Shown: one piece after another, positions 40,772 through 55,839 of the stretch | Position numbering within the stretch: the first letter of the stretch is position 1 | Layout: every line of letters begins with the position of its first letter | Assembly (NCBI RefSeq): GCF_000297055.2 | Contig: NC_022357.1 | Span: 1,612,001-1,676,000 of the forward strand | Length of the DNA stretch: 64,000 bases | Direction of reading: 5' to 3' | Source: Sulfuricella denitrificans skB26 | GTDB taxonomy: Bacteria > Pseudomonadota > Gammaproteobacteria > Burkholderiales > Sulfuricellaceae | Notes under the pieces: model-generated | What the model was told of the DNA's origin: nothing | Database searches by the model: none | Seen by the model: only the letters and a program-made list of their open reading frames with translations | Position numbers and translations under genes: made by a program

Positions 40772-43342
40772 ATGGTTCCTCCCTCCATGGACACGAAGCG
40801 GTGGCGAGAAACCCTCCAGATCGGCAGGAGTAAGCTGCGGCATACCTATCTGAAGAACGGTAATGCCGCTGCTCTCCTGCACGGCCACAGCAGGCTGGTG
40901 GATAAGCTGCTTCAGACCATCTGGCGTCACTTATCCTTACCTTCCTCTAGCGTGCTTATCGCCGTTGGCGGTTACGGCCGCCAACAACTTTTTCCCGGTT
41001 CAGACACCGATCTGCTGATCCTTCTCCCATCAAACCCGGATGAGATGCTCGGGCAGAAACTGGAACAGCTCATCGGTTTGCTATGGGACACCGGCCTGGA
41101 AGTCGGCCACAGCGTGCGTACCCTGCCCGAATGTCTGGAGGAAGCGAAGGACATCACGGTCCAGACCAATCTGCTCGAAGCGCGCTTCCTGGCCGGGAAC
41201 CGCACGCTGTTTCAAAGATTTACTGTTGCGGCACAGGAAAACCTGAATGCCCAGGATTTTTTCGAAGCGAAACTGCTGGAACAACAGCGGCGCTATGCTC
41301 GCTTCCACGATACCGCCTACAACCTGGAACCCAACCTGAAGGAAAGTCCGGGCGGCCTGCGGGATTTGCAAAATATCCTGTGGGTCAGCCGTGCGCTGGG
41401 TTTAGGGGATAACTGGAACAAGCTGGCGCTTGGATCCATCATTACCGTCCAGGAAGCCCGTCAAATCCGTAGCCACGAACGCTTTCTGGAAAATCTGCGC
41501 ATTCGCCTTCACTATCTCGCCCGGCGGCGCGAAGACCGCCTCCTGTTCGACCACCAGACGCTGCTTGCCGAGCAATGCGGATATACGGACAAAGCCCAAC
41601 ACAGAGCCAGCGAACAATTGATGCAGCGCTATTACCGCACCGCCAAGGCGGTCAGCCTGCTCAACGAAATCCTGCTAAAAAATCTGCGCGAGCGCACCTC
41701 CCCTGCTGCCTTAAGGCAGGTTGACCCTATCAACGAAACCTTTCAGGCTCGCAATGGGCTGCTCGAAATCACTGATACAGACGCATTTCAGCGTGAACCG
41801 AGCATCATCCTGGAAAGTTTTCTACTGCTGCAGCAACACCCTGAATTGAGCGGCATGAGTGCGACCACGCTGCGCGCATTGTGGCGTTCGACGCCAAAAA
41901 TCAATGCCGCCTTCCGGCGCCAGCCCAGCAATCAGGCACTGTTCATGCAAATCATCCGGCAGCCGCGCGGGCTCACCCACGAACTGCGCCTGATGAACCA
42001 GCTTGGCATCCTGGGACGCTACATTCCAGCCTTTGGCCGGATTGTCGGCCAGATGCAGCATGACCTGTTCCATGTCTACACAGTGGACGAGCACATCATG
42101 ATGGTGGTGCGCAATCTGAGGCGTTTTACCGTACCGGAATTCGCCCATGAGTTTCCGCTGGCCAGTGGCCTCATCAACAATTTCGAACGCCCGGAAGTGC
42201 TTTATCTGGCAGGCCTGTTCCACGACATCGCCAAAGGAAGGGGGGGTGACCACTCGACGCTGGGCACGGTGGATGCGCGCCGCTTCTGCCGACAGCATGG
42301 CCTGAGCGAGGAGAGCACCGACATGGTTACCTGGCTGGTGGAGAACCACTTGGTCATGTCAGCCACAGCTCAAAAACAGGATACCAGCGACCCAGAAGTA
42401 ATCGAATCCTTCGCCAATCGGGTTCGCGATCAACGCCACCTCGTCGCACTTTATTTACTCACCGTCGCCGATATTCGAGGCACCAGCCCGAAAGTCTGGA
42501 ATGGCTGGAAAGGAAAGCTGCTGGAGGATCTGTTCAGGGCAACACAACGTTACCTGGCGAGTGGCAGCACCCCGCTGGATACGCACCTTCAGACAAGGCA
42601 AACCGAAGCCCTGTCCATTCTCCGCCTTTATGCCTTCGCTAACGACGCGCACCAGGCGTTATGGGCGCAACTGGAATCGGGCTATTTCCTTCGGCATGAG
42701 GCACAGGAAATTGCCTGGCACGTCCGCAACCTCCATGCCAAGGTCAACTCCGGGCAACCCGTTGTCAAGGCACGTTTAAGCCCCGCAGGGGAAGGCATCC
42801 AGGTGATGATCTACACGCCGGACAAGGACGATCTATTCACCCGTATTTGCAGTTTTTTCGAGCGCAACGACTTCAACATCGTCGAAGCCAAAATCCACAC
42901 CAGCCGCCATGGCTACGCCCTTGACAGCTACGTGGTCCTGGATGAGGCTAACCGCGCTGCCCATTATCGCGATTTGCTGAGTTTTATCGAATATGAATTA
43001 TCACAACGACTGACCCCGGACAAGGCACCGGAACCACCCTTGCAAGGGCGCCTGAGCCGCCACCTCAAGCATTTCCCGATTACGCCGGAAATTTCAGTCA
43101 AACCTGACGAAAAAAGGGTCTACCATGTGTTGTCAATCGTTGCAGGCGACCGTCCCGGCTTGCTTTCACGTATTGCCCAGGTACTTCTGAAGCACCGTAT
43201 TCATTTGCATACAGCAAAAATCGCAACGCTGGGTGAGCGCGCCGAGGATACCTTCCTGATTACCGGTGCGGAACTGGAAAACCCGAAAGAAGTGCTGCGT
43301 CTCGAAGCCGATTTGCGGCAGCAATTACAGGCAACCCACTGA
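40772..43342 (+). CDS. glnD: PII uridylyltransferase GlnD
   Basis: GlnD uridylylates and deuridylylates PII proteins in response to glutamine and sets nitrogen control. The 856-residue protein has a nucleotidyltransferase domain with GGYGRQQLFPGSDTDLLIL, an HD domain with GLFHDIAKGRGGDHS, and two C-terminal ACT domains (about 690-760 and 790-856). The order map-glnD is common in Proteobacteria. No truncation is seen. Confidence 0.97.
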   Translation: MVPPSMDTKRWRETLQIGRSKLRHTYLKNGNAAALLHGHSRLVDKLLQTIWRHLSLPSSSVLIAVGGYGRQQLFPGSDTDLLILLPSNPDEMLGQKLEQLIGLLWDTGLEVGHSVRTLPECLEEAKDITVQTNLLEARFLAGNRTLFQRFTVAAQENLNAQDFFEAKLLEQQRRYARFHDTAYNLEPNLKESPGGLRDLQNILWVSRALGLGDNWNKLALGSIITVQEARQIRSHERFLENLRIRLHYLARRREDRLLFDHQTLLAEQCGYTDKAQHRASEQLMQRYYRTAKAVSLLNEILLKNLRERTSPAALRQVDPINETFQARNGLLEITDTDAFQREPSIILESFLLLQQHPELSGMSATTLRALWRSTPKINAAFRRQPSNQALFMQIIRQPRGLTHELRLMNQLGILGRYIPAFGRIVGQMQHDLFHVYTVDEHIMMVVRNLRRFTVPEFAHEFPLASGLINNFERPEVLYLAGLFHDIAKGRGGDHSTLGTVDARRFCRQHGLSEESTDMVTWLVENHLVMSATAQKQDTSDPEVIESFANRVRDQRHLVALYLLTVADIRGTSPKVWNGWKGKLLEDLFRATQRYLASGSTPLDTHLQTRQTEALSILRLYAFANDAHQALWAQLESGYFLRHEAQEIAWHVRNLHAKVNSGQPVVKARLSPAGEGIQVMIYTPDKDDLFTRICSFFERNDFNIVEAKIHTSRHGYALDSYVVLDEANRAAHYRDLLSFIEYELSQRLTPDKAPEPPLQGRLSRHLKHFPITPEISVKPDEKRVYHVLSIVAGDRPGLLSRIAQVLLKHRIHLHTAKIATLGERAEDTFLITGAELENPKEVLRLEADLRQQLQATH

Positions 43343-43395: not shown

Positions 43396-44841
43396 GTGAC
43401 ATCTCCAGACTCGCTTGATCCCTCCGACTGGCAAGACCTCCGGGCTCAAGGCCATCGCATGCTCGACGACATGCTGGACTACCTCGAGCATATCCGCGAG
43501 CGTCCGGTCTGGCAGCCGATCCCGCAGGATGTGCGCAACCTGTTCCAGCAAAATCTTCCCCAGAAACCAAGCGATCTTGCCGCAGTCCATAAATCCTTCA
43601 TGCAGGATGTTCTACCCTACACCGTCGGCAACGCCCATCCGGGCTTCATGGGTTGGGTCCATGGCGGAGGAACACCCGTAGGCATGCTGGCGGAGATGCT
43701 GGCCGCCGGACTGAACGCGAATCTCGGTGGTCGTGACCAGATGCCGGTTGAGGTTGAGCAACAGGTGGTGCAGTGGGTTCGCGAACTCTTCAGTTTTCCG
43801 GAAAGTGCTAGCGGGCTGTTTGTAACCGGCACCTCCATGGCGAATCTGATCGGTGTTCTGGTTGCCCGCACCGCTGCCCTCGGCACCGGCGTGCGCCATG
43901 AAGGACTCGCAGCCAGCGACAAACAATTGACTGCCTACACCTCAGCGGGTGCACACGGTTGCATTGCGCAGGCGATGGATCTTTCCGGTCTTGGAATCGA
44001 CGCCTTGCGAGTCATTCCGATGAACGATCAATACCAGATGGATATTGCTGCGCTTGAACGTTCCATCGCAGCGGACAGAAACGCCGGATTTAGCCCATTC
44101 TTCATTGCCGGAACCGCCGGTACGGTCGATGTCGGCGCGATCGACAATCTCACCGCCTTAGCCGATATCGCCCATAGGGAAGGGCTGTGGTTTCATGTTG
44201 ATGGCGCCTACGGTGCTCTGGGCATATTGGCACCGGATATTGCACCACGCCTGAAAGGCATCGGTCGAGCAGATTCCATCGCACTGGATTTCCATAAGTG
44301 GGGACAAGTTCCGTACGATGCCGGCTTTATCCTGGTTAGAGATGGCCATCTGCATTACGACACCTTCGCCTCACCAGCTGCTTACCTGCGACGTGAAACC
44401 CGGGGATTGGCGGCTGGATCGCCCTGGCCTTGCGATTTTGGGCCCGATCTCTCGCGTGGCTTCCGCGCTCTCAAAACGTGGTTCACGATTAAAGTATATG
44501 GCGCTGAAAAGCTCGGTCAAATGATTTCAAACACCTGCACGCTTGCCCAATACATGAAGCAGCGCATCGAGACATCACCGGAACTTGAACTCCTTGCACC
44601 GGTCTCGCTGAACATCGTCTGCTTTCGCTACCGCAGCGAAGATGCCGACCGGGTGAATGCGAACATTGTTGTTGCCCTGCAGGAGTCGGGGATAGCCGCA
44701 CCGTCAACGACCACCATCGATGGGCACCTCGCCATTCGAGCCGCCATCGTCAATCACCGCACCTGCTCAGATGACATCGACGCCTTGATCAATGCAACGA
44801 TTGCCTTCGGTCAGGTTCACGCCAAACCCATGCAAGACTAG
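43396..44841 (+). CDS. Group II PLP-dependent decarboxylase of unknown substrate
   Basis: The 481-residue fold-type I protein resembles aromatic-amino-acid and glutamate-type decarboxylases. Visible are GNAHPGFMGWVHGGGTP (about 77-93), a stacking histidine at about 187 (SAGAHGC), the aspartate in FHVDGAYG, and the PLP lysine at 301 in DFHKWGQ. The substrate cannot be read from the sequence; an amino acid or amino acid derivative is likely. GTG is the start, with AGGAG five bases before it. It is first of three genes separated by 9 and 15 bases, 53 bases after glnD. Confidence 0.87.
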   Translation: MTSPDSLDPSDWQDLRAQGHRMLDDMLDYLEHIRERPVWQPIPQDVRNLFQQNLPQKPSDLAAVHKSFMQDVLPYTVGNAHPGFMGWVHGGGTPVGMLAEMLAAGLNANLGGRDQMPVEVEQQVVQWVRELFSFPESASGLFVTGTSMANLIGVLVARTAALGTGVRHEGLAASDKQLTAYTSAGAHGCIAQAMDLSGLGIDALRVIPMNDQYQMDIAALERSIAADRNAGFSPFFIAGTAGTVDVGAIDNLTALADIAHREGLWFHVDGAYGALGILAPDIAPRLKGIGRADSIALDFHKWGQVPYDAGFILVRDGHLHYDTFASPAAYLRRETRGLAAGSPWPCDFGPDLSRGFRALKTWFTIKVYGAEKLGQMISNTCTLAQYMKQRIETSPELELLAPVSLNIVCFRYRSEDADRVNANIVVALQESGIAAPSTTTIDGHLAIRAAIVNHRTCSDDIDALINATIAFGQVHAKPMQD

Positions 44842-44850
44842 GAAACTGCC

Positions 44851-46068
44851 ATGTCTAATGAAAATGGGCAAGAGCCGCTCATCGGCCTGGCTGCCTTAAT
44901 GCGTATGGCCTACTCCGGCGTTGGCCTCGCGCCGTTGGGAGCTCAGCTAATCGCTCGCGCAGAGCGCAATCCGAACGATGCCAATGCGTTGATGGATTTG
45001 TCTACGGTACTGCAGCTCAGGGGGAATCGCGAAATGGCACTGGGCGTACAAGCCCAGGCACTGTCAATTCAGCAGCTTTATCGCCCGCCGACAGCTAGCG
45101 AAAAACCTGGCATCCATCTACTCGCCATCATGGGGCCTGGGGACTTGATGTCAAACTCGCCGCTGGAGTTTCTGCTAGAAGACGCCGATGTTGTGCTTGA
45201 CCTGCTCTATATTACTCCGGGCCTGCCTTTGCCGCCGGCCTTGCCCGATCATGACGTGTTGTTCGTTGCCATTGCCCAGTCTGACCAGAATCTTCCCCTG
45301 TTAAAGGAAACAACGCGCGCCATAAAGTCCTGGCCACGCCCGGTACTCAATATGCCGGATCGAATTGGCTTGATGTCGCGCGATGACGCTTGTGCGCTGC
45401 TAAAATCCGTGCCAGAGGTAGTCATGCCGGTCACGGCACGAATATCCAGACAAACTCTGGAACAAATCGGCCGCGAAGCGCTATCGATCACCGCCATCCT
45501 TGAAGATGGCGATTACCCCATCATCGTCCGGCCAGTCGACTCCCATGCAGGCCAAGGCCTGGATAAAATAGCGTATCCGGCCGCCATTGCGGACTACCTG
45601 AATAAGTCGCCGAACAGCGAGTTCTATGTGGCGCGTTTTGTCGATTATCGAAGCCCGGATGGGCAGTTCCGAAAATACCGAATCGTGCTCATCGAAGGCC
45701 GCCCGTTTGTCAGTCATATGGGCATCTCTGACCACTGGATGATTCATTACCTGAATGCAGGGATGGCCGACAGCGCCGAAAAACGAGATGAAGAAGCACA
45801 TTTCATGGCCGATTTCGACACCGGCTTCGCACGCCGGCACGAACAGGCCTTCCGCGCCATCAACGAGCGGGTTGGTCTCGATTACCTCGGCATCGACTGC
45901 GGCGAGACCGCCGATGGAAAATTACTGATTTTCGAGATTGACAGCTGCATGATCGTCCACGCAATCGATCCGGTCGACGTATTTCCCTACAAACAGCCTC
46001 AGATGAAAAAAGTATTCTCTGCATTTCGCGAGATGCTGTTAAATGCGATACAGCGCAGCCATCCTTAA
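44851..46068 (+). CDS. TPR-ATP-grasp ligase of unknown substrate
   Basis: The 405-residue protein begins with a TPR-like helical region (about 20-80; NPNDANALMDLSTVLQLRGN). An ATP-grasp domain follows, with IIVRPVDSHAGQG at about 223-235, VARFVDYRS, and the metal-binding FEID at 361-364 followed by MIVHAIDP. ATP-grasp enzymes of this RimK/GshB-like type join a carboxylate to an amine with ATP. A decarboxylase upstream and a methyltransferase downstream suggest an amide-forming step. The family is uncharacterised as far as I know. Confidence 0.85.
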   Translation: MSNENGQEPLIGLAALMRMAYSGVGLAPLGAQLIARAERNPNDANALMDLSTVLQLRGNREMALGVQAQALSIQQLYRPPTASEKPGIHLLAIMGPGDLMSNSPLEFLLEDADVVLDLLYITPGLPLPPALPDHDVLFVAIAQSDQNLPLLKETTRAIKSWPRPVLNMPDRIGLMSRDDACALLKSVPEVVMPVTARISRQTLEQIGREALSITAILEDGDYPIIVRPVDSHAGQGLDKIAYPAAIADYLNKSPNSEFYVARFVDYRSPDGQFRKYRIVLIEGRPFVSHMGISDHWMIHYLNAGMADSAEKRDEEAHFMADFDTGFARRHEQAFRAINERVGLDYLGIDCGETADGKLLIFEIDSCMIVHAIDPVDVFPYKQPQMKKVFSAFREMLLNAIQRSHP

Positions 46069-46083
46069 GAGAAGCCGTCAACC

Positions 46084-48561
46084 ATGAGAAGGAAGCCTGT
46101 CACTTCCCCAGGAGATATCCCGTCCACAGAGCAGCTACTGGTGGAGGGCGGCGATGCGCGCATTGCGCTTGAACCTGACGACGTTTTGAACAAATATGGT
46201 TGCCAGCCATTCCCGGATCCAGATCTAGCCGCTTTCGGATCATCGACAGCATCGGTCATTTCTGCTGAGAGCTTCGCCGCAGCCGACAAACTGCGTCATC
46301 GCATCTTCCTCACAGCCGGAGCCGAGTCCGAAGCAGTCACTTATACCCGGGAACTCAATCTGATTCGCCAGGAATTGCTTCGCTTGTGCGGAGTATCCGA
46401 CCTCGCCGGTATCGAGGTGGTCTTTGCCTCATCAGGCACTGATCTTCACTTGATTGCCGCCCAGCTTGCTGGCGGTACCGAATCCATGCCCACTCTCATC
46501 GTCATGGTGAACGCTGCGGAGACGGGCAGCTATGTACCGGCAGCACTGGCCGGTCGCCACTTCAGTAGCCGAGCCTCATTGGGTGAATCGGTCATCGAAG
46601 GGGCATCCATCTTTAGCGGTAGTACAGTTGAAGTCGTGACCGTGCCCATTCGCCATGATGATGGTACCCCACGAGCGACAACTGACGTAGACGCCGACTT
46701 CGAATCCCTGGTAACCGGAGCGGCCGAAATGGGGAGACGCGTACTCCTGGTGCTTGTCGACGTCTCCAAAACCGGACTGATCGCGCCCAGTCCGGCCTGC
46801 GTTTCGCGACTACAGCATAGGCTGCCGGGAACAATGGATGTCCTCGTCGATGCCTGCCAGTTCCGGATCGCCCCCTCTACCCTGCTCGCCTATCTGAAAC
46901 ATGATTTCATGGTGGCGCTGACTGGATCGAAATTCGTGACCGGCCCGACCTTTTCCGGCGCGCTACTCATCCCCCCGGCAGTCGCGCTGCGGCTGCGGAA
47001 ACGGCCTTTCCCTCCCGCACTGGGAGCCTATTCCACCCAGGGAGATTGGCCTCAAGGCTGGGACACCGCGGGTTACCTCGAAAATGTTGCCAATTTTGGG
47101 CTTCTGTTGCGCTGGGAAGCGGCTTTGGAGGAGTTGCGCGCATTTCGCTCGGTGCCTGAGTCAAAAGCCGCAGGCTTTCTCCAGGCTTTTGCCAGCGCTG
47201 TCCAGGATCGACTGACGCGCGATCTGGCCTTCGAACCCTTGCCCGTTCCTGAGCTTGATCGTCACCCCTTGATCGAAGCATCAAGCTGGGATGATATCCC
47301 GACGATCTTCCCGTTCCTGCTCTTTCATCCCGAAACCCCTGACGGGAAGCAACCTTTTAACCGCGAAGAAACAGCGCAGGTCTACCGACTGTTGCAAGCC
47401 GACCTGTCCAACCATCCCGGCTCAGGACACGCCGGGATAAACAATGATAGTGCCAGATTACGCTGCCAGTTGGGACAGCCGGTTGCATGCGGCAACCGTA
47501 ACGGTATCTTGGTCAGCGCGTTGCGACTATGCGTCAGCTCGCGTCTCATCGTCGAGGCGACATCAGACGGTGGGCGCAATACCGCCATCGTCATCGCGAG
47601 GGCGATGGCGGCACTAGACAAAATCGCGATGCTTGTGAAAAATAATTATTTTAAAAATATCGCCATCGGAAGCCAGGGAAGCGAGGACGAAAACGAGTGC
47701 CACTACCTCGGGCAGTTCATCCCCCTGCACTACCACCACAACATGCTGATGGACGAATACCGCATGGGTCGTTTCAAGGCAGCTATCAACCACACGGTTT
47801 TTGAGGGCGCCAAGGTCCTGGAGCTGGGAGGGGGAACCGGCGTCTTGTCCTGTTTTGCAGCATCCAAAGCGAGCAAGGTCTGGTGCGTGGAATTCAACCC
47901 TGATCTGGTAGCGGAGTCACGACGTCTGCTGGCGCACAATCCGGATGGGCACAAAGTGAAAGTAATCCACGCCGATGCCTTTCATTACCTGCCCCCAGAG
48001 CCTGTAGACGTGGTGATCTGCGAAATGATCCACTCGGCGATGTTGCGGGAAAAACAGGTCGCGGTCATCAACGCTTTCAAGGATCGCTACCAGCGTCGCT
48101 TCGGCACCCCACTGCCTGTTTTCGTGCCGGAAGCCATCATCATGGCAGTCCAGCCACTACAGCAAACTTATGATTTTTTCGGCTTTCACGCGCCCATCGT
48201 TCAGTTCCAGTCACCGCATGCCATCCTGCCCGGTACGCTTGAGATGGCGGCACCAGTGGTTTACAGCACGCTCGACTTCACCCTGCCCACTTCTCCAGAG
48301 ATCCAATGGGTAGGCACTTTCTCCATGGAAAGGGACGGGACGGTCAACGCCCTGCGCTTCGTGACAAAAAACATTCTGGCGGTAGTACTTGAGCAAGACA
48401 CCACGATAGATTGGCTAGGCGGCCATCTTGTGCTGCCCTTGGCCGAACCGTTGGAAGTCAAAGCCGGCGACGTGATCCAGATAAGCTTCCGCTATTTTGC
48501 TGGCGGGTCGTTGAAGTCTTTGGAAAAAAACATGCGTGCCACACTGCTGGATTCTGAATGA
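46084..48561 (+). CDS. Fusion of a fold-type I PLP domain and a PRMT-like methyltransferase
   Basis: The 825-residue product has two parts. Residues about 40-500 look like a class-V-type PLP enzyme, with Asp256 in VLVDACQF and Lys283 in TGSKFVTGP at the positions expected for PLP binding. Residues about 545-825 form a SAM methyltransferase with motif I ELGGGTG at 580-586, an acidic VEFN, VVICEMIHS at the double-E-like position, and a beta-sandwich C terminus as in protein arginine methyltransferases. I know of no characterised enzyme with this fusion. Either half could be regulatory. Confidence 0.82.
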   Translation: MRRKPVTSPGDIPSTEQLLVEGGDARIALEPDDVLNKYGCQPFPDPDLAAFGSSTASVISAESFAAADKLRHRIFLTAGAESEAVTYTRELNLIRQELLRLCGVSDLAGIEVVFASSGTDLHLIAAQLAGGTESMPTLIVMVNAAETGSYVPAALAGRHFSSRASLGESVIEGASIFSGSTVEVVTVPIRHDDGTPRATTDVDADFESLVTGAAEMGRRVLLVLVDVSKTGLIAPSPACVSRLQHRLPGTMDVLVDACQFRIAPSTLLAYLKHDFMVALTGSKFVTGPTFSGALLIPPAVALRLRKRPFPPALGAYSTQGDWPQGWDTAGYLENVANFGLLLRWEAALEELRAFRSVPESKAAGFLQAFASAVQDRLTRDLAFEPLPVPELDRHPLIEASSWDDIPTIFPFLLFHPETPDGKQPFNREETAQVYRLLQADLSNHPGSGHAGINNDSARLRCQLGQPVACGNRNGILVSALRLCVSSRLIVEATSDGGRNTAIVIARAMAALDKIAMLVKNNYFKNIAIGSQGSEDENECHYLGQFIPLHYHHNMLMDEYRMGRFKAAINHTVFEGAKVLELGGGTGVLSCFAASKASKVWCVEFNPDLVAESRRLLAHNPDGHKVKVIHADAFHYLPPEPVDVVICEMIHSAMLREKQVAVINAFKDRYQRRFGTPLPVFVPEAIIMAVQPLQQTYDFFGFHAPIVQFQSPHAILPGTLEMAAPVVYSTLDFTLPTSPEIQWVGTFSMERDGTVNALRFVTKNILAVVLEQDTTIDWLGGHLVLPLAEPLEVKAGDVIQISFRYFAGGSLKSLEKNMRATLLDSE

Positions 48562-48572
48562 CAGGATGTCTG

Positions 48573-48863
48573 TTATATGGGTGGTGGCTTGTTGTCCACG
48601 CCACCATGCTCCAGCTGGTAAAGCCAGGCAAGTAGTTCCGCCACCGCGAAATAAAGCTCCGGCGGAATATGCTGATCCAGATCCACCTGCATCAACAACG
48701 AAACCAGTTCGGGCGATTCGTGCACATAGACGCCGGCATCCCGGGCACGCTCGATAATCGCCTCGGCCAGCAAACCCCGGCCCTTCGCCACCACCTGGGG
48801 CGCCGCCTTGCCGGCGCTGTAAGCCAGCGCGACAGCAAGTTGCTGGCTATCAGGTTTTTTCAT
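48573..48863 (-). CDS. FlhB C-terminal domain-like flagellar protein
   Basis: The 96-residue protein matches the cytoplasmic C-terminal domain of FlhB/YscU export-switch proteins (AVALAYSAGKAAPQVVAKG and IPPELYFAVAELLAWLY). The autocleavage NPTH motif and the membrane part are absent. Such stand-alone FlhB tails may act in export switching. The start at 48863 (MKKPDSQQ) overlaps the fliK-like stop by 14 bases. It converges on the fusion gene 11 bases away. Confidence 0.85.
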   Translation of the reverse strand: MKKPDSQQLAVALAYSAGKAAPQVVAKGRGLLAEAIIERARDAGVYVHESPELVSLLMQVDLDQHIPPELYFAVAELLAWLYQLEHGGVDNKPPPI

Positions 48864-49911
48864 GCCGCTCCACCGACATGGCCAGCACATTCAGGCCGGC
48901 AGCCTCCATCGAGTTACGCAGCCTGTCCTGCGCCCCTCTCATCGCTTCCGCTGTACCCGCATCTACTGCCTTTAGTTCGACACGCAAGCCCTGCTGGGTA
49001 AAGGCCAGCGATGCCTGCACATCGCCCAATCTAGGTAGTTGAAGGCGCAAACTGGTCTGCCAGTGCGGCATTTCTGCCTCTCCAACACCCCCTTCGCGTG
49101 CGCCCCGCTCTTCCACCCGCCACTCCATCGGCTGTCCCTGCCACACCTGCCCCTGCCATATCAGCTGACGGGAGTCGAGCGTTTGCAACTGCTGCTGAAC
49201 CAGGGTAACGGCCTCGGCATGAACGGGCATCCTGGAGGCGCTTTGTGCAAGAAGTCCCTCTGATTGCATCAATGCAGGAGCATTCTTCTGCGCAACCTCA
49301 GCTCCCGACCCTGGAATCAAAACCGGAAGCTTGCCCTGCGGCTCCTGCATCAAATCTGTCAGTCGCCTTTCTCCGGCGACCCATTGCGCCTGGTGCGACT
49401 CATAGAACAAGCCACTCTGAGACAAAGCATTACGCAGGGAAGCGGCAAAATCCTTGATATCGGATGGCGCAGCGGAAAGAAGCGGAGCCGTCTTGTTAAG
49501 CGGAGCAGCTTGTGTTTCTGACTGGTCAGATATTTTTTGCAGCAGAGCGCCGAGATAACGTACCGAATCGCTGAGGCTGACTTGCGGTTTGGCGCCAGCC
49601 GCAAGATTGTTGCCTGCCGCGGAAGGCAAATCGCGAGTAAGCGCGAAGGTGAGGCGAGGCTGATTGGAAACGAAGGTCAACTCAACCTTATCACCAGGCT
49701 GGGTATTGCGGGGCAGATTCATGTCTAGCGAGGCATCACCGACTTGCACCTGGAATCGCCCATTCGGCAGGCTAGCCAGCACCACGGCTGACAAGCGCTG
49801 GCCAGGTACCCATTGGGCCTCCTCCAGCGGAGTCTGAGCGACATCAATGAGAGGTGGCGCTGAGGTTTTAATCAGCAGTTGCAGCTGATTTAAAACATCA
49901 TTATGAATCAT
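48850..49911 (-). CDS. fliK: FliK-like flagellar hook-length control protein
   Basis: The 353-residue protein has a low-complexity Gln/Ala/Ser middle and a C-terminal FliK-type domain (about 260-350; LRLQLPRLGDVQASLAFTQ). It probably sets hook length or belongs to the FlhB-switch family; the assignment is by domain and neighbours rather than by full-length similarity. Its ATG overlaps the DUF2802 gene by 11 bases. Confidence 0.8.
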   Translation of the reverse strand: MIHNDVLNQLQLLIKTSAPPLIDVAQTPLEEAQWVPGQRLSAVVLASLPNGRFQVQVGDASLDMNLPRNTQPGDKVELTFVSNQPRLTFALTRDLPSAAGNNLAAGAKPQVSLSDSVRYLGALLQKISDQSETQAAPLNKTAPLLSAAPSDIKDFAASLRNALSQSGLFYESHQAQWVAGERRLTDLMQEPQGKLPVLIPGSGAEVAQKNAPALMQSEGLLAQSASRMPVHAEAVTLVQQQLQTLDSRQLIWQGQVWQGQPMEWRVEERGAREGGVGEAEMPHWQTSLRLQLPRLGDVQASLAFTQQGLRVELKAVDAGTAEAMRGAQDRLRNSMEAAGLNVLAMSVERHEKT

Positions 49912-50618: not shown

Positions 50619-50945
50619 TCAGGGTGTTTCGTACGCCTTTAGCAGCTTTTTTTCCGCTCCGATGCTGCCCAGTATTTCCTGCAATTCACCCTTCCATGCT
50701 TCGGTTAGCATCTTGATTTCTTTATCCGCAGAAAGAGTTTTATGGATCAGTTCACCTTTTCGAAACTGTTCTTCTCGCGCCCACAGATCCTCATTTTCCT
50801 GTTTCATCAGGGTATCGGTTAGAGCCGCACGCACCTGTACAAGCTCAATGAGTCGATCCCATTCCGCTTGATTGGCAGCCTCCAGCATTTTCTGCGTAAG
50901 CCGCCATATTGCATCATATTGCTCAATTAATTCAGCACTACTCAC
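50619..50945 (-). CDS. fliT: FliT-like flagellar export chaperone
   Basis: The 108-residue, all-helical protein is of FliT size and lies directly after fliS. FliT binds FliD and, in enterobacteria, FlhDC. Similarity to the family is by length, helical pattern and position, with conserved Trp and Lys in the first helix (EQYDAIWRLTQKML). It follows the fliS stop by two bases. Confidence 0.8.
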   Translation of the reverse strand: MSSAELIEQYDAIWRLTQKMLEAANQAEWDRLIELVQVRAALTDTLMKQENEDLWAREEQFRKGELIHKTLSADKEIKMLTEAWKGELQEILGSIGAEKKLLKAYETP

Positions 50946-50947
50946 AC

Positions 50948-51433
50948 TCAGGCCTTGCCGTAGCTAACCGCCGAGTTACGCTGCGGCGGGGCACCATTGG
51001 CGACCTCGATGGGTTTTGACGGCAGTGGCTTTTGGCCAATCGCCGCCCAAGCACCCCTCAAATCTACCAGCAAGCGGCCGACTTCATCCAAGGCACCAAT
51101 TTCATTTTTCATGTTTGCCATCAGTAAACGGTCGCACATGTAATCATATAAATCATTCAGGTTTTGAGCCATCTCTCCACCTGCCTTGATATCGAGGCTT
51201 AATTGCAGACCATCCTGAATAATTGCCATCGCCCTGGATATCGATGCACATTTCGTGATGACATCATTTTTTTGCATCGCCATTCGGGCCTTGGCCACCG
51301 ATCTGACCGCACCATCAAAAAGCATGACAATCAATTGATGCGAAGAAACTCCATCCAGGTTGGCCTCAACACTGGCGTTAGAGTAGGCTTTCATGGCATC
51401 GCGATTCACGGCATTCATCAACTTATTCTCCAT
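50948..51433 (-). CDS. fliS: Flagellin export chaperone FliS
   Basis: FliS binds the C terminus of flagellin and keeps it unfolded for export. The 161-residue product has the start AMKAYSNASVEANLDGVSSHQLIVMLFDGA and the DLYDYMCDRLLMAN region typical of the family. The C-terminal tail of about 30 residues (PSKPIEVANGAPPQ) is longer than usual. It lies 27 bases from fliD. Confidence 0.94.
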   Translation of the reverse strand: MENKLMNAVNRDAMKAYSNASVEANLDGVSSHQLIVMLFDGAVRSVAKARMAMQKNDVITKCASISRAMAIIQDGLQLSLDIKAGGEMAQNLNDLYDYMCDRLLMANMKNEIGALDEVGRLLVDLRGAWAAIGQKPLPSKPIEVANGAPPQRNSAVSYGKA

Positions 51434-51460
51434 TTAATTTCTGCCATAAAAAATATTGGC

Positions 51461-53140
51461 TTACAAACTTGCCTTTATCCCAGGCAAATTAGCCAGCTGC
51501 TGGGTCAAGGCATCGCTGGTTGACTGCATCTGGCTCATCATGGTGTTCAATGCGGAAAACTGCTTGGTGTAGTTCGCCTGCAAACGGGCAAGCCGTATAT
51601 TCAAAGCATCCCGGCTGCTACCAATATTCTTGACACTCTGATTCAAGCCTGCAGTACGGGATGCAATCACACCATCATTCGCAAGAAATTTACTGAGCAG
51701 GCCATTCAGTTGATCCGCATAGCCGCGAGTGAATGTCACCGTTCCGCGATCACCTGTAGCGCCCCCAAGAATCTGGATTTGCAGGCCGCTCGCCGAAGTG
51801 CCGATTGCACCAGACAATGTCTGGACACCGCCTTCCGCAGTAGCGCCACCTATCGTCCCCGCCGCTGACGAACTAGCGGTGCCGAGGTTGCTCGCATTAA
51901 TGGCATAAGTACCGGTCTGAGTATTCGCTGAGGAACTCACGAATTTGATCTGACTATCGGAGGGACTACCTAGCGCCGTAAAAATACCGGCGATATCCTT
52001 AAAATTCGTATCGATTGCATTCTGTAACTTGTTGGCATCCAAAGACAATGAACCGTCTTTCTGCGTCTTAATGCCAATCGAATACAGTGTGGTATTGGTA
52101 CCGGTCAAACCGCTGATGGGAGTGACCATCATGCTACGCATCTGACCCATGATCGTACGCACGGAGGAATCACTCTGCAGGATACCTGCTGTTTTGGTCG
52201 CGGGGTCATAGGCGGACAAGCTATTGAGCGTATTGTTCATATCGTTAAACGCTGTCACGAAGCCCTGCACCGACGACTTCATGGTCACCGTATCACGAGC
52301 CACACTCAGCGTAGATGTACCGGCCTTCTGCAACTTCAGTGAGACTCCTTGCAGTACATCGTCCACCGTGTTGGTCGTCTTGCTGACGAACACACCATCC
52401 ACTTTCAGTTCGGCATTTTGAGCAGTGGCTACCTCAGACATGTTCTGAGTGCCAGTCGGATCGTTCGCCAGCAAATTTGACAATGCGGCATCGCCGCTAA
52501 CGCTAATTTTCAAGCTCTGTGTCTTGCCGCTGGAGATGGAGCTCAGCACCAGACGATAAGGGGAATCGCCTCCATCGTTAACGATCGAGGCGGTAATGCC
52601 GACATTCCCGCCATTGATGGCATCGCGAATACCTTCAAGCGTATTGTGTGCGCTGTCGATGGTAATAGTTTTAATCGCATTACTGCTGGCAAAGGTCACA
52701 CCTGGGCCGGCATATTTACCGGTAACCGCATCGAATGTAGGTGTAGCTGCATCAGTAATGGTGCCGAAATCGAAACTGATCGTGCCGACGCCAATTTCTG
52801 AAACCGCGTTGGACTGGCCTGGCGCAACCAATTTCTGCGCTTGCGCGAGCTTTAGCACCTCAATCGAATGACTGCCAATCGCAGCCGAGTCCGAGGCACT
52901 TGCGTCCATAACCGTGGGGTCAGTTGAATTTGCCGTATTGGAGTTGAATTTAGCGGGATCGTTCAAGCTTTGAACCGCCGTTTGAAACTTTGCAACAGCA
53001 CTCTTGATGCTGCCGAAGGCCGAGATTTTGGCCTGATAATTAGCCTCTTTCGTGTTCAGAGCAACCAGTGGTTTCTGCTCCACCTGCATTAACTGGCTGA
53101 CGATGCCGGCTACATCGAGACTTGAAGCTGAAACGGCCAT
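51461..53140 (-). CDS. fliD: Flagellar hook-associated protein 2 (cap) FliD
   Basis: FliD forms the filament cap that assembles flagellin. The 559-residue protein has the N-terminal coiled segment (SSLDVAGIVSQLMQVEQKP), a flagellin-hook IN motif (about 165-245), the middle D2-D3 region, and a C-terminal coiled coil ending DALTQQLANLPG. Its order flaG-fliD-fliS-fliT downstream of flagellin is classical. Confidence 0.96.
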   Translation of the reverse strand: MAVSASSLDVAGIVSQLMQVEQKPLVALNTKEANYQAKISAFGSIKSAVAKFQTAVQSLNDPAKFNSNTANSTDPTVMDASASDSAAIGSHSIEVLKLAQAQKLVAPGQSNAVSEIGVGTISFDFGTITDAATPTFDAVTGKYAGPGVTFASSNAIKTITIDSAHNTLEGIRDAINGGNVGITASIVNDGGDSPYRLVLSSISSGKTQSLKISVSGDAALSNLLANDPTGTQNMSEVATAQNAELKVDGVFVSKTTNTVDDVLQGVSLKLQKAGTSTLSVARDTVTMKSSVQGFVTAFNDMNNTLNSLSAYDPATKTAGILQSDSSVRTIMGQMRSMMVTPISGLTGTNTTLYSIGIKTQKDGSLSLDANKLQNAIDTNFKDIAGIFTALGSPSDSQIKFVSSSANTQTGTYAINASNLGTASSSAAGTIGGATAEGGVQTLSGAIGTSASGLQIQILGGATGDRGTVTFTRGYADQLNGLLSKFLANDGVIASRTAGLNQSVKNIGSSRDALNIRLARLQANYTKQFSALNTMMSQMQSTSDALTQQLANLPGIKASL

Positions 53141-53241
53141 GATTGCCTCCTTGCGTGAACAACTGTCTTGCTATAGTGCGGGCTGAGCACTCTACTTAAA
53201 GGACCTCAATTCTACATCTTAAATGTAAAGCATACTCGCCG

Positions 53242-53616
53242 TCATGCCTTCTGGCGGATAATCAAGCCCTGCAAGGTATCGATCGACTTGGCAATAGACA
53301 ATATCTCTTCAGTAGGAAATTGACGGATGACATCACCGGTGACTTTGTCCATGACCTTGATCACGTTTATCTTGGTATCCTTATCAACAGTAAATTCAAT
53401 ATTCGATCCGTGCGGCATATTTTGCAACACCTGGTTCACGTTTTCCACTGCATTTTTTACTTGATCCTGCACAGTCGCCGAAGTTACCGACTGAACCGAC
53501 TTCTCCTGTGCAACCACACTTGTGGCAGATTGCGGGACCGCTATTGACCTTGCCTTGTACGCCGTATCCGCTACATTACCACCTGACTGTATCCCACCAT
53601 TAAGCTGAATATCCAT
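53242..53616 (-). CDS. flaG: FlaG-like protein
   Basis: The 124-residue product has a variable N terminus and a conserved C-terminal domain (NIEFTVDKDTKINVIKVMD) typical of FlaG, which affects filament length. GGGGGAGG lies before the ATG at 53616. It is between fliC and fliD. Confidence 0.9.
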   Translation of the reverse strand: MDIQLNGGIQSGGNVADTAYKARSIAVPQSATSVVAQEKSVQSVTSATVQDQVKNAVENVNQVLQNMPHGSNIEFTVDKDTKINVIKVMDKVTGDVIRQFPTEEILSIAKSIDTLQGLIIRQKA

Positions 53617-53635
53617 GATACCTCCCCCATGGGAA

Positions 53636-53667
53636 ATTCCCCTGCCAGCTTGAACCGGCAGGGGAAT
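53636..53667 (-). terminator. Hairpin after flagellin
   Basis: The arms attcccctgcc and ggcaggggaat surround a ten-base loop in the gap between fliC and flaG. It follows the flagellin stop by about 20 bases on the minus strand. No long T-run follows, but such strong hairpins often end or stabilise flagellin mRNA. Confidence 0.7.
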
Positions 53668-53688
53668 GGTTTACATTGAAATAACCAC

Positions 53689-55839
53689 TTAACGCAACAG
53701 GGTCAACACTGAGTTAGGCAACTGGTTCGCCTGAGCCAACATCGCTGTGCCCGCTTGCTGCAGGATCTGGTTACGGGTCAACTGAGCGGTTTCTGCCGCA
53801 TAGTCCGCATCCTGAATCCGGCTACGCGCAGCAGACAAGTTTTCCGATGAAGCTGTCAAACTGGCTACCACACTCGTAAAGCGGTTTTGCAACGCACCCA
53901 TGCTGCCACGAATGGTGCTGACCTGGCTCAACGCGCCGTCGATCAGCGAGATCGCGTTGTTCGCGCCAGATACCGTGGTGATATCCACTCCGGCAATCGT
54001 GGTCAGGCCAACACTGGCAGCGCTCAATCCTGCTGCGCCAGGCGAGGTGCCGCCGATGCTGAAGGTGTTGGCGGAATTGAGCGACAACGTGCCTTTGGTG
54101 CTGTTAGCAGCATAAACCCCGCTGGTGCCAGCCGTATCGACGCTGGCCACGGCACCGGCAGTGCCTAGGGTAACCGGCTCAGTCGGCGCGGCCACAACTC
54201 CGGTACCCCCGTACAGGGTATTAGTCACGGTAAGCGCACCGGCGGTTCTGGAGGTGAAGCCCACTGTGCCGTTGCCGGCAGCCTGTTGTGCGGAAATTGC
54301 CGAGGCCAGATTGGTCGCAGTCAGAATATCGTCATCAGTCGCAGCCGTACCACCAGTGCCCAACTTGACCTGGATGTTGCCGGCGGTGGCAGGGCCGCTT
54401 GCATTATGTGCGGTGAATTCATAGGTCAGACCGCCGACTTTCAGCGTGTCGCCAATCGCAACGCCTGCACCCACCGTGGTTGAAGCCCAGGAGCTGGCAT
54501 TAGCGGTTGCCGCAGCCGTCGCCAAACCATCCGCGAAACCAGTCGATTTTACGTTGCTCTTTGCTGTCAGAATCGCATCAGTTGTCACACCCGTAATGGT
54601 GAATGCGTTCGTTACCGTGGAATTCAAGGCGAGCGCGGCACGAACGTTAGCGCCTTGAGTAGAAGCTGCGGAATCAGTAGCGATCTGAATGTTGGTCGCA
54701 CTATTGGCGGCCGCGCTGTACGTGAAGGTAACGCCAGCCACAGTCAGAGTGTCGGTAATCGCGGCAGTACCCGTGGAAGTATTGGTCACGACCTGGCGTG
54801 CGCCACTGGAGACCGTGATGACGCTGTTGCCGAAGGCCTTGGTAGCACCCGCCAATTCGAGGCCGGTGGCATTCTCTACGCGGGTGGCGCCGTCAGCCGT
54901 AGTGGCAGCATTGGTGGTGATGTCGATGGTTTTGCCGGTGTTGGAACTTAGCGTCAGTGCGCCGGTACCGCCATTTGCCGCTGCTGTCACGCCGGTCTGA
55001 GCTGATACGGCATTGATCGCGGCAGCGACGTTGGCGCCCTGGGTCGCGACATTACTGGAACCAGCCACTGCGCCGACGCTCACACCGTTGATCACCAGAT
55101 CGCCGGATTGCAGCGTCTGATTGCGCAGCAAGGCGTTAGTACTGGTAACCGAGGTCGCGGCAGACGCAACCACACCGGTCTTGGAGGACACACTATTAAT
55201 GGAAGCGGCAATCGCTTCGGCCGAACCGGATGTTGAACTGCCGACATCCTGACCGTTCAGGGTCAACTGACCTGCTGTTAGGGCTGTGCCAGTTACTGCA
55301 GTAATACTGTTGCTGGTAACCTGATATGAGCCAAGCGCCGTTGTTTGCGAATTGCCTGTGCTCGCAGTAATGGTCTGATTGGCATTCGCGCCAACCTGGA
55401 ATTGGGAAGCAGTAAAGGTGCCATCCAAAATATTCTGGCCGTTAAATTGGGAGGTGGTCGCCACGCGCTGGATTTCCGCCAGCAACTGCACTACCTCAGC
55501 ATTCAGCGAAGTACGATCTGACGCAGTGTTGGTCGAGTTGGCAGACTGCACGGCCAGTTCGCGGATACGCTGCAGGTTATTTGTTACCTCGGCCAATCCG
55601 CCTTCTGCGGTTTGCGCCAGGGAAACGCCGTCGTTGGCGTTACGTGCAGCCTGGTTCAGGCCGCGAATCTGGGAGGTCATCCGGTCGGAAATCGCCAAGC
55701 CGGCTGCGTCGTCCTTGGCGCTGTTAATACGCAAGCCGGAAGACAAGCGCTGCAAAGACGTTTGCAACGCGGCCTGGGACGTATTCAGATTGCGCTGCGC
55801 ATTCAGCGAGGCAATGTTGGTATTGATAATTTGGGGCAT
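53689..55839 (-). CDS. fliC: Flagellin
   Basis: The 716-residue protein is longer than many flagellins. The conserved N terminus ([35 protein letters not shown]) and C terminus ([36 protein letters not shown]) form the D0/D1 core. Residues about 150-620 are a variable region rich in Ala, Thr, Ser and Gly with repeated flagellin-IN-like units (for example [13 protein letters not shown]). It is probably the glycosylated surface domain. AGGAGA precedes the ATG and a sigma-28 promoter lies upstream. Confidence 0.96.

Follow-up and report, generated by a model that had tools for sequence, protein, structure and literature searches.

In Sulfuricella denitrificans skB26, a predicted fold-type I PLP enzyme and a PRMT-like methyltransferase are encoded by one gene. 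This fusion is genuine and narrow in distribution, and the most plausible reading is that two activities associated with the flagellum became joined in a single lineage. The PLP part belongs to an operon with a decarboxylase (DEC) and an ATP-grasp ligase (GRASP); neither this operon nor a link to flagella had been mentioned in the original prediction, which was made from the DNA sequence of the region. Our best guess, to which a probability of about 40% may be assigned, is that the DEC-GRASP-PLP operon and the methyltransferase constitute a flagellum-associated modification pathway in beta- and gammaproteobacteria, with putative chemistry and target. Coordinates without a locus name refer to the window, i.e., the whole stretch of 64,000 nucleotides that was analysed.

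The fusion gene and its two halves

The following features were assigned to the fusion:

46084..48561, + strand: PLP-methyltransferase fusion gene, ATG start, ORF of 825 amino acids; fusion also in Sulfuricella sp. T08 (L019, 86%)
46117..47640, + strand: PLP half, residues ~12–519, unnamed family with predicted fold type I; structural match with Z 21.2, catalytic residues invariant in 41/41
46849..46851, + strand: codon of Asp256, which by analogy with class V enzymes would pair with the ring nitrogen of PLP; invariant in 41/41
46930..46932, + strand: codon of Lys283, presumed Schiff-base lysine; invariant in 41/41
47641..47703, + strand: linker, residues 520–540, located between the final column conserved in the PLP half and the YLGQFIP sequence in the methyltransferase; evolves faster than either half
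47704..48558, + strand: PRMT-like class I methyltransferase half, residues 541–825; PRMT matches, stand-alone in >70 loci
47815..47841, + strand: SAM motif I VLELGGGTG, residues 578–586; Methyltransf_25 at 1.4e-8
48022..48051, + strand: double-E loop, E647...E656 (CEMIHSAMLRE), aligned to the double-E of PRMTs; in 75/76 family proteins
48403..48414, + strand: TIDW, residues 774–777, which may correspond to the THW loop of PRMTs; [TS][IV]DW in 76/76 family proteins

As had been proposed, a single protein carries both halves; its reading frame is present in one exact copy in the genome and contains no internal stop. A sequencing artefact, or a frameshift joining two genes, was ruled out, since an uninterrupted version of the same fusion, 86% identical, is present in Sulfuricella sp. 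T08 and the dN/dS of the whole fusion between the two species is 0.19. Both halves are under purifying selection (dN/dS of 0.22 for the PLP half and 0.09 for the methyltransferase half); the value for the linker, 0.52, is based on 21 codons only. The search for relatives yielded a full-length fusion only in strain T08, besides the genome of S. denitrificans. Elsewhere the halves are unfused, and the search for separate genes which had been recommended with the original prediction detected a PLP gene of this kind at about 40 loci; for the methyltransferase gene, the number of loci exceeded 70. One locus of the Nitrosomonadales (L027) contains decarboxylase, ligase, PLP protein and methyltransferase as four adjacent unfused genes, in that order, beside fliE/fliF/fliG. 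A row of this type is likely the kind of ancestor from which the fusion arose, although the PLP protein of L027 is only 28% identical. In this locus (L027:7554-9572) the decarboxylase and the ligase are 66–75% identical to the genes in the window, and the PLP protein possesses about 130 additional N-terminal residues; possibly, the PLP gene was replaced there by a divergent paralogue.

The PLP half was modelled with AlphaFold from seven input sequences (mean pLDDT 71, pTM 0.79). The model matched the NifS-like protein 4ixo with Z 21.2 (rmsd 3.6 Å, 334 residues aligned), and NifS and alanine:glyoxylate aminotransferases (AGT) with Z 20–21; a Foldseek search gave a best E of 5e-9 and listed cysteine desulfurases, the Egt2 lyase and group II decarboxylases. 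The fold-type I domain claimed at the outset was thereby borne out by modelling, and Asp256 and Lys283, which had been taken for a competent PLP site, were found at the positions claimed, in the motifs D256-A-C-Q259 and T280-G-S-K283. In alignments, D256, Q259, S282 and K283 were invariant in 13/13 relatives and then in a wider set of 41/41. The PLP half resembles the class V fold-type I enzymes (NifS/SufS cysteine desulfurases, AGT, Egt2 C-S lyase) in fold (Z ~20–21) and in the active-site pattern of Asp-x-x-Gln and Ser-Lys. It differs from them by an identity of only 9–18% in the best structural matches, by a nearly invariant K229 in an SKTG motif and by an extra conserved N-terminal segment, N36-x-Y38-x-C40. 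When 13/13 members were scanned against Pfam, no family matched the PLP half, Aminotran_5 included; no NCBIfam model covers it, and a profile search against PDB sequences gave no sequence relative. Thus, the PLP half is a predicted fold-type I PLP enzyme. Its modelled fold does not reveal the reaction, and aminotransferase activity would be one of several possibilities, because the top structural matches include desulfurases, C-S lyases and decarboxylases.

The PLP family recurs in beta-, gamma- and alphaproteobacteria. On plasmids of Sinorhizobium and Rhizobium (L189:8968-10503, L190, L192) a PLP protein with 41–42% identity, annotated as "hypothetical protein", is preceded by NRPS-type genes (annotated in L189 and L192) and followed by a ParB-domain protein.

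For the methyltransferase half, a SAM motif I had been expected at residues 580–586, where VLELGGGTG (578–586) is located; a post-I motif, VEFNPD, is present at 602. A search of the PDB with the single sequence gave PRMTs at 1e-11, and a profile of 19 sequences gave PRMT chains at 3e-24, with an alignment which covers, in PRMT3, both the Rossmann core and the barrel, and which also runs through the PRMT2 barrel; this supports the predicted PRMT-like character with a beta-rich end. PRMT_C was matched by one of the 19 methyltransferase relatives (3.4e-7). Similarities to PRMT1/2/3/4 comprise the sequence profile, SAM motif I, the double-E loop and the extent of the match into the C-terminal barrel. 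On the other hand, there is no THW loop (FSW in PRMT5); 76/76 family proteins contain [T/S][I/V]DW, and TIDW is 2 residues off register against THW in the alignment to PRMT3. The half also lacks about 12 residues at a site of additional sequence in PRMT3 which is probably its dimerisation arm. Judged from its sequence, the half is PRMT-like by homology, and the lack of a THW motif keeps it outside the PRMTs in the strict sense. The notion that PRMT-like enzymes are uncommon in bacteria does not hold for this family, which occurs as a stand-alone protein in about 70 loci, mostly betaproteobacterial.

The methyltransferase FliB, a lysine methylase of flagellin, is likewise found among flagellar genes; it is a [4Fe-4S] enzyme (PMC8598068), whereas the Sulfuricella methyltransferase half is a class I SAM enzyme of the PRMT type. 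With PADLOC, the region 47800-48050 and its equivalents matched mad2 in 19/19 methyltransferases tested, along a stretch of about 84 residues that surrounds the SAM motif and with E down to 7e-22, more strongly than generic methyltransferase models did. A function in defence was set aside, since this was the sole PADLOC match in the 19 methyltransferases and none was obtained for the decarboxylase or the ligase.

The operon and its insertion site

Upstream and downstream of the fusion gene the window contains:

40772..43342, + strand: glnD, upstream border of the inserted block; 49 bp from the flhB-like gene in a relative with an empty site
43396..44841, + strand: DEC, PLP group II decarboxylase, first gene of the operon; Pyridoxal_deC at 1.1e-68
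44851..46068, + strand: GRASP, second gene of the operon, RimK-like ATP-grasp ligase whose N-terminus is helical and TPR-like; model against RimK with Z 17.5
48573..48890, - strand: FlhB C-terminal-like protein, downstream border; Bac_export_2 at 6e-19
48850..49911, - strand: fliK; Flg_hook at 3.9e-15
50619..55839, - strand: fliT, fliS, fliD, flaG, fliC; Pfam matches

DEC ends 9 bp before GRASP (405 aa), which is separated by 15 bp from the fusion gene. The PLP gene is the third of the operon, and the order DEC-GRASP-PLP is kept in nearly all of the approximately 40 loci. The model of GRASP could be superimposed on RimK 5zct over 270 residues; fold and conserved acidic residues are shared with RimK/LysX ligases. 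Unlike these, GRASP has the additional helical N-terminus, and it scored 12.4 bits with the RimK family model, far below the cut-off of 143.4. Several other arrangements were observed: two divergently oriented ATP-grasp paralogues in the vicinity of fli or che genes, with the PLP gene downstream of one of them (L130:6069-9046, L132); a ligase homologue on a Paraburkholderia plasmid with a serC-like transaminase as a different PLP partner (L194:7941-10306); and, in Rhizobium tumorigenes, the order GRASP-PLP-DEC, at a distance from flagellar genes and close to an MFS transporter.

The same types of enzymes (PLP decarboxylase, ATP-grasp ligase, PLP enzyme) are known from MfnA, MfnD and MfnC of methanofuran/methylofuran side-chain synthesis. 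That pathway was ruled out for the operon: the formyltransferase FTR is present in just 2/37 genomes with the PLP protein and missing in 35/37, including S. denitrificans.

In G011, a close relative with about 90% DNA identity in the neighbouring genes, 49 bp separate the DNA that matches the end of glnD from that around the FlhB-like gene, i.e., the site is empty. In G003, of the same genus, the interval between glnD and flhB (L202:2555-5283) contains an intact decarboxylase and an ATP-grasp gene, inverted and without the PLP-methyltransferase; thus, the interval took up or rearranged the operon differently. A methyltransferase gene resident at this site before the insertion of the operon is unsupported, since the site in congeneric relatives lacks one. 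The flagellin encoded at 53689-55839 has 716 aa and a long central insertion, with about 490 residues between its conserved ends.

Association with flagella

Co-occurrence was determined in 300 genomes sampled from the order, and 205 of them contained flagellin (PF00669). Flagellin was present in 36/37 PLP-positive genomes (Fisher p 7e-6; the genomes are related, so that the p value overstates their independence), and in 48/49 GRASP-positive as compared with 157/251 GRASP-negative genomes (Fisher p 5e-8, with relatedness ignored). It was also found in 15/15 genomes with a genuine methyltransferase (Fisher p 3e-3, relatedness again ignored), a count which leaves out a divergent protein of 23% identity in G058. 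The sole PLP-positive genome without flagellin, G578, is missing FliH as well.

Core flagellar genes were found within 8 kb in 17/41 PLP loci, and the other 24 are not near flagellar genes. Where the PLP loci adjoin flagellar genes, their positions vary (fliC/fliD/fliS, flgM/N-flgA, fliE/fliF, fliQ; at least 9/17 taxonomic groups). Among loci with the methyltransferase only, which served as a comparison set and are not a random control, 5/74 had a core flagellar gene within the same distance; in Gallionella-type loci the methyltransferase alone adjoins flhB/fliK/ycgR. Apart from the operon genes, neighbour families common to at least three taxonomic groups were nearly all flagellar. A literature search, with most subscription journals outside its coverage, gave no description of operons combining flagellum, ATP-grasp and PLP genes, or of bacterial PRMTs acting on flagellin.

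Possible functions of the pathway and the fusion

In the putative modification pathway, the decarboxylase would convert an amino acid to an amine; the ligase would link the carboxylate of a small acid, or that of a side chain in a flagellar protein, with an amine or an amino acid; the PLP enzyme would remodel the amino-acid-like part; and the methyltransferase may methylate the product or the same flagellar target. In the Sulfuricella lineage, the PLP gene would have become fused to an adjacent gene for a PRMT-like methyltransferase which belonged to the same set of flagellum-linked functions. It appears rather unlikely that all of this amounts to a previously undescribed system dedicated to the flagellum, in which an ATP-grasp ligase with a TPR part would attach an amine derived from decarboxylation, a PLP enzyme of a new family would remodel it, and a bacterial PRMT-like enzyme would add the methyl group, with a single chain responsible for both remodelling and methylation in Sulfuricella. 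The rhizobial PLP homologue behind NRPS genes and the trio of R. tumorigenes indicate that the link between this chemistry and flagella is not universal.

The operon could instead make a free small molecule, such as an amide-type specialised metabolite, in which case the flagellar neighbourhood would reflect a preferred site of insertion or regulation in common with motility, while the methyltransferase would tailor the molecule or be fused by chance. Sets of a decarboxylase, a ligase and an aminotransferase yield small molecules, e.g., methanofuran (PMC8141765), and the pairing of a GRASP homologue with a SerC-like transaminase points in this direction, as does the MFS transporter near the R. 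tumorigenes trio. This explanation is a serious rival, if a somewhat unlikely one, because of the NRPS genes directly before the rhizobial homologue, the position of that trio away from flagellar genes, and the location of over half of the PLP loci; the near-perfect co-occurrence with flagellin, and flagellar neighbourhoods which are repeated and differently placed, would be unexpected for an unrelated metabolite.

The two halves might also be independent, with the methyltransferase modifying a flagellum-linked target of its own, like its stand-alone relatives, and being joined to the PLP enzyme only since the genes were neighbours. The short and fast-evolving linker, the unfused genes side by side in L027, and the finding that 11/15 methyltransferase genomes in the sample, as well as about 70 further loci, have the methyltransferase without the PLP protein are consistent with independence. 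Retention of the fusion in two species speaks against it, although both halves would be expected to be under purifying selection even if they did not cooperate; on the whole, independence is considered unlikely.

Channelling of an aminated product from the PLP site to the SAM site for methylation, as suggested in the original prediction, is possible and agrees with the physical fusion of two sites which look intact, but its chances are slim. The argument against it is that most genomes with the methyltransferase have no PLP enzyme of this family: both were present in only 4/15 methyltransferase genomes, two of the four being the fusions, the overlap outside fusion genomes was at chance level (2/13, p 0.47), most relatives of either half are in genomes without the other, and PRMT-type methyltransferases usually have proteins as substrates.

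The fusion connects two uncharacterised flagellum-associated protein families. Should the operon modify flagellin, as the flagellum-associated modification pathway would allow, this would be a modification of the filament other than the known glycosylation and the methylation of lysine by FliB, and the methyltransferase would be a candidate for an enzyme of the PRMT type acting on a surface protein of bacteria.
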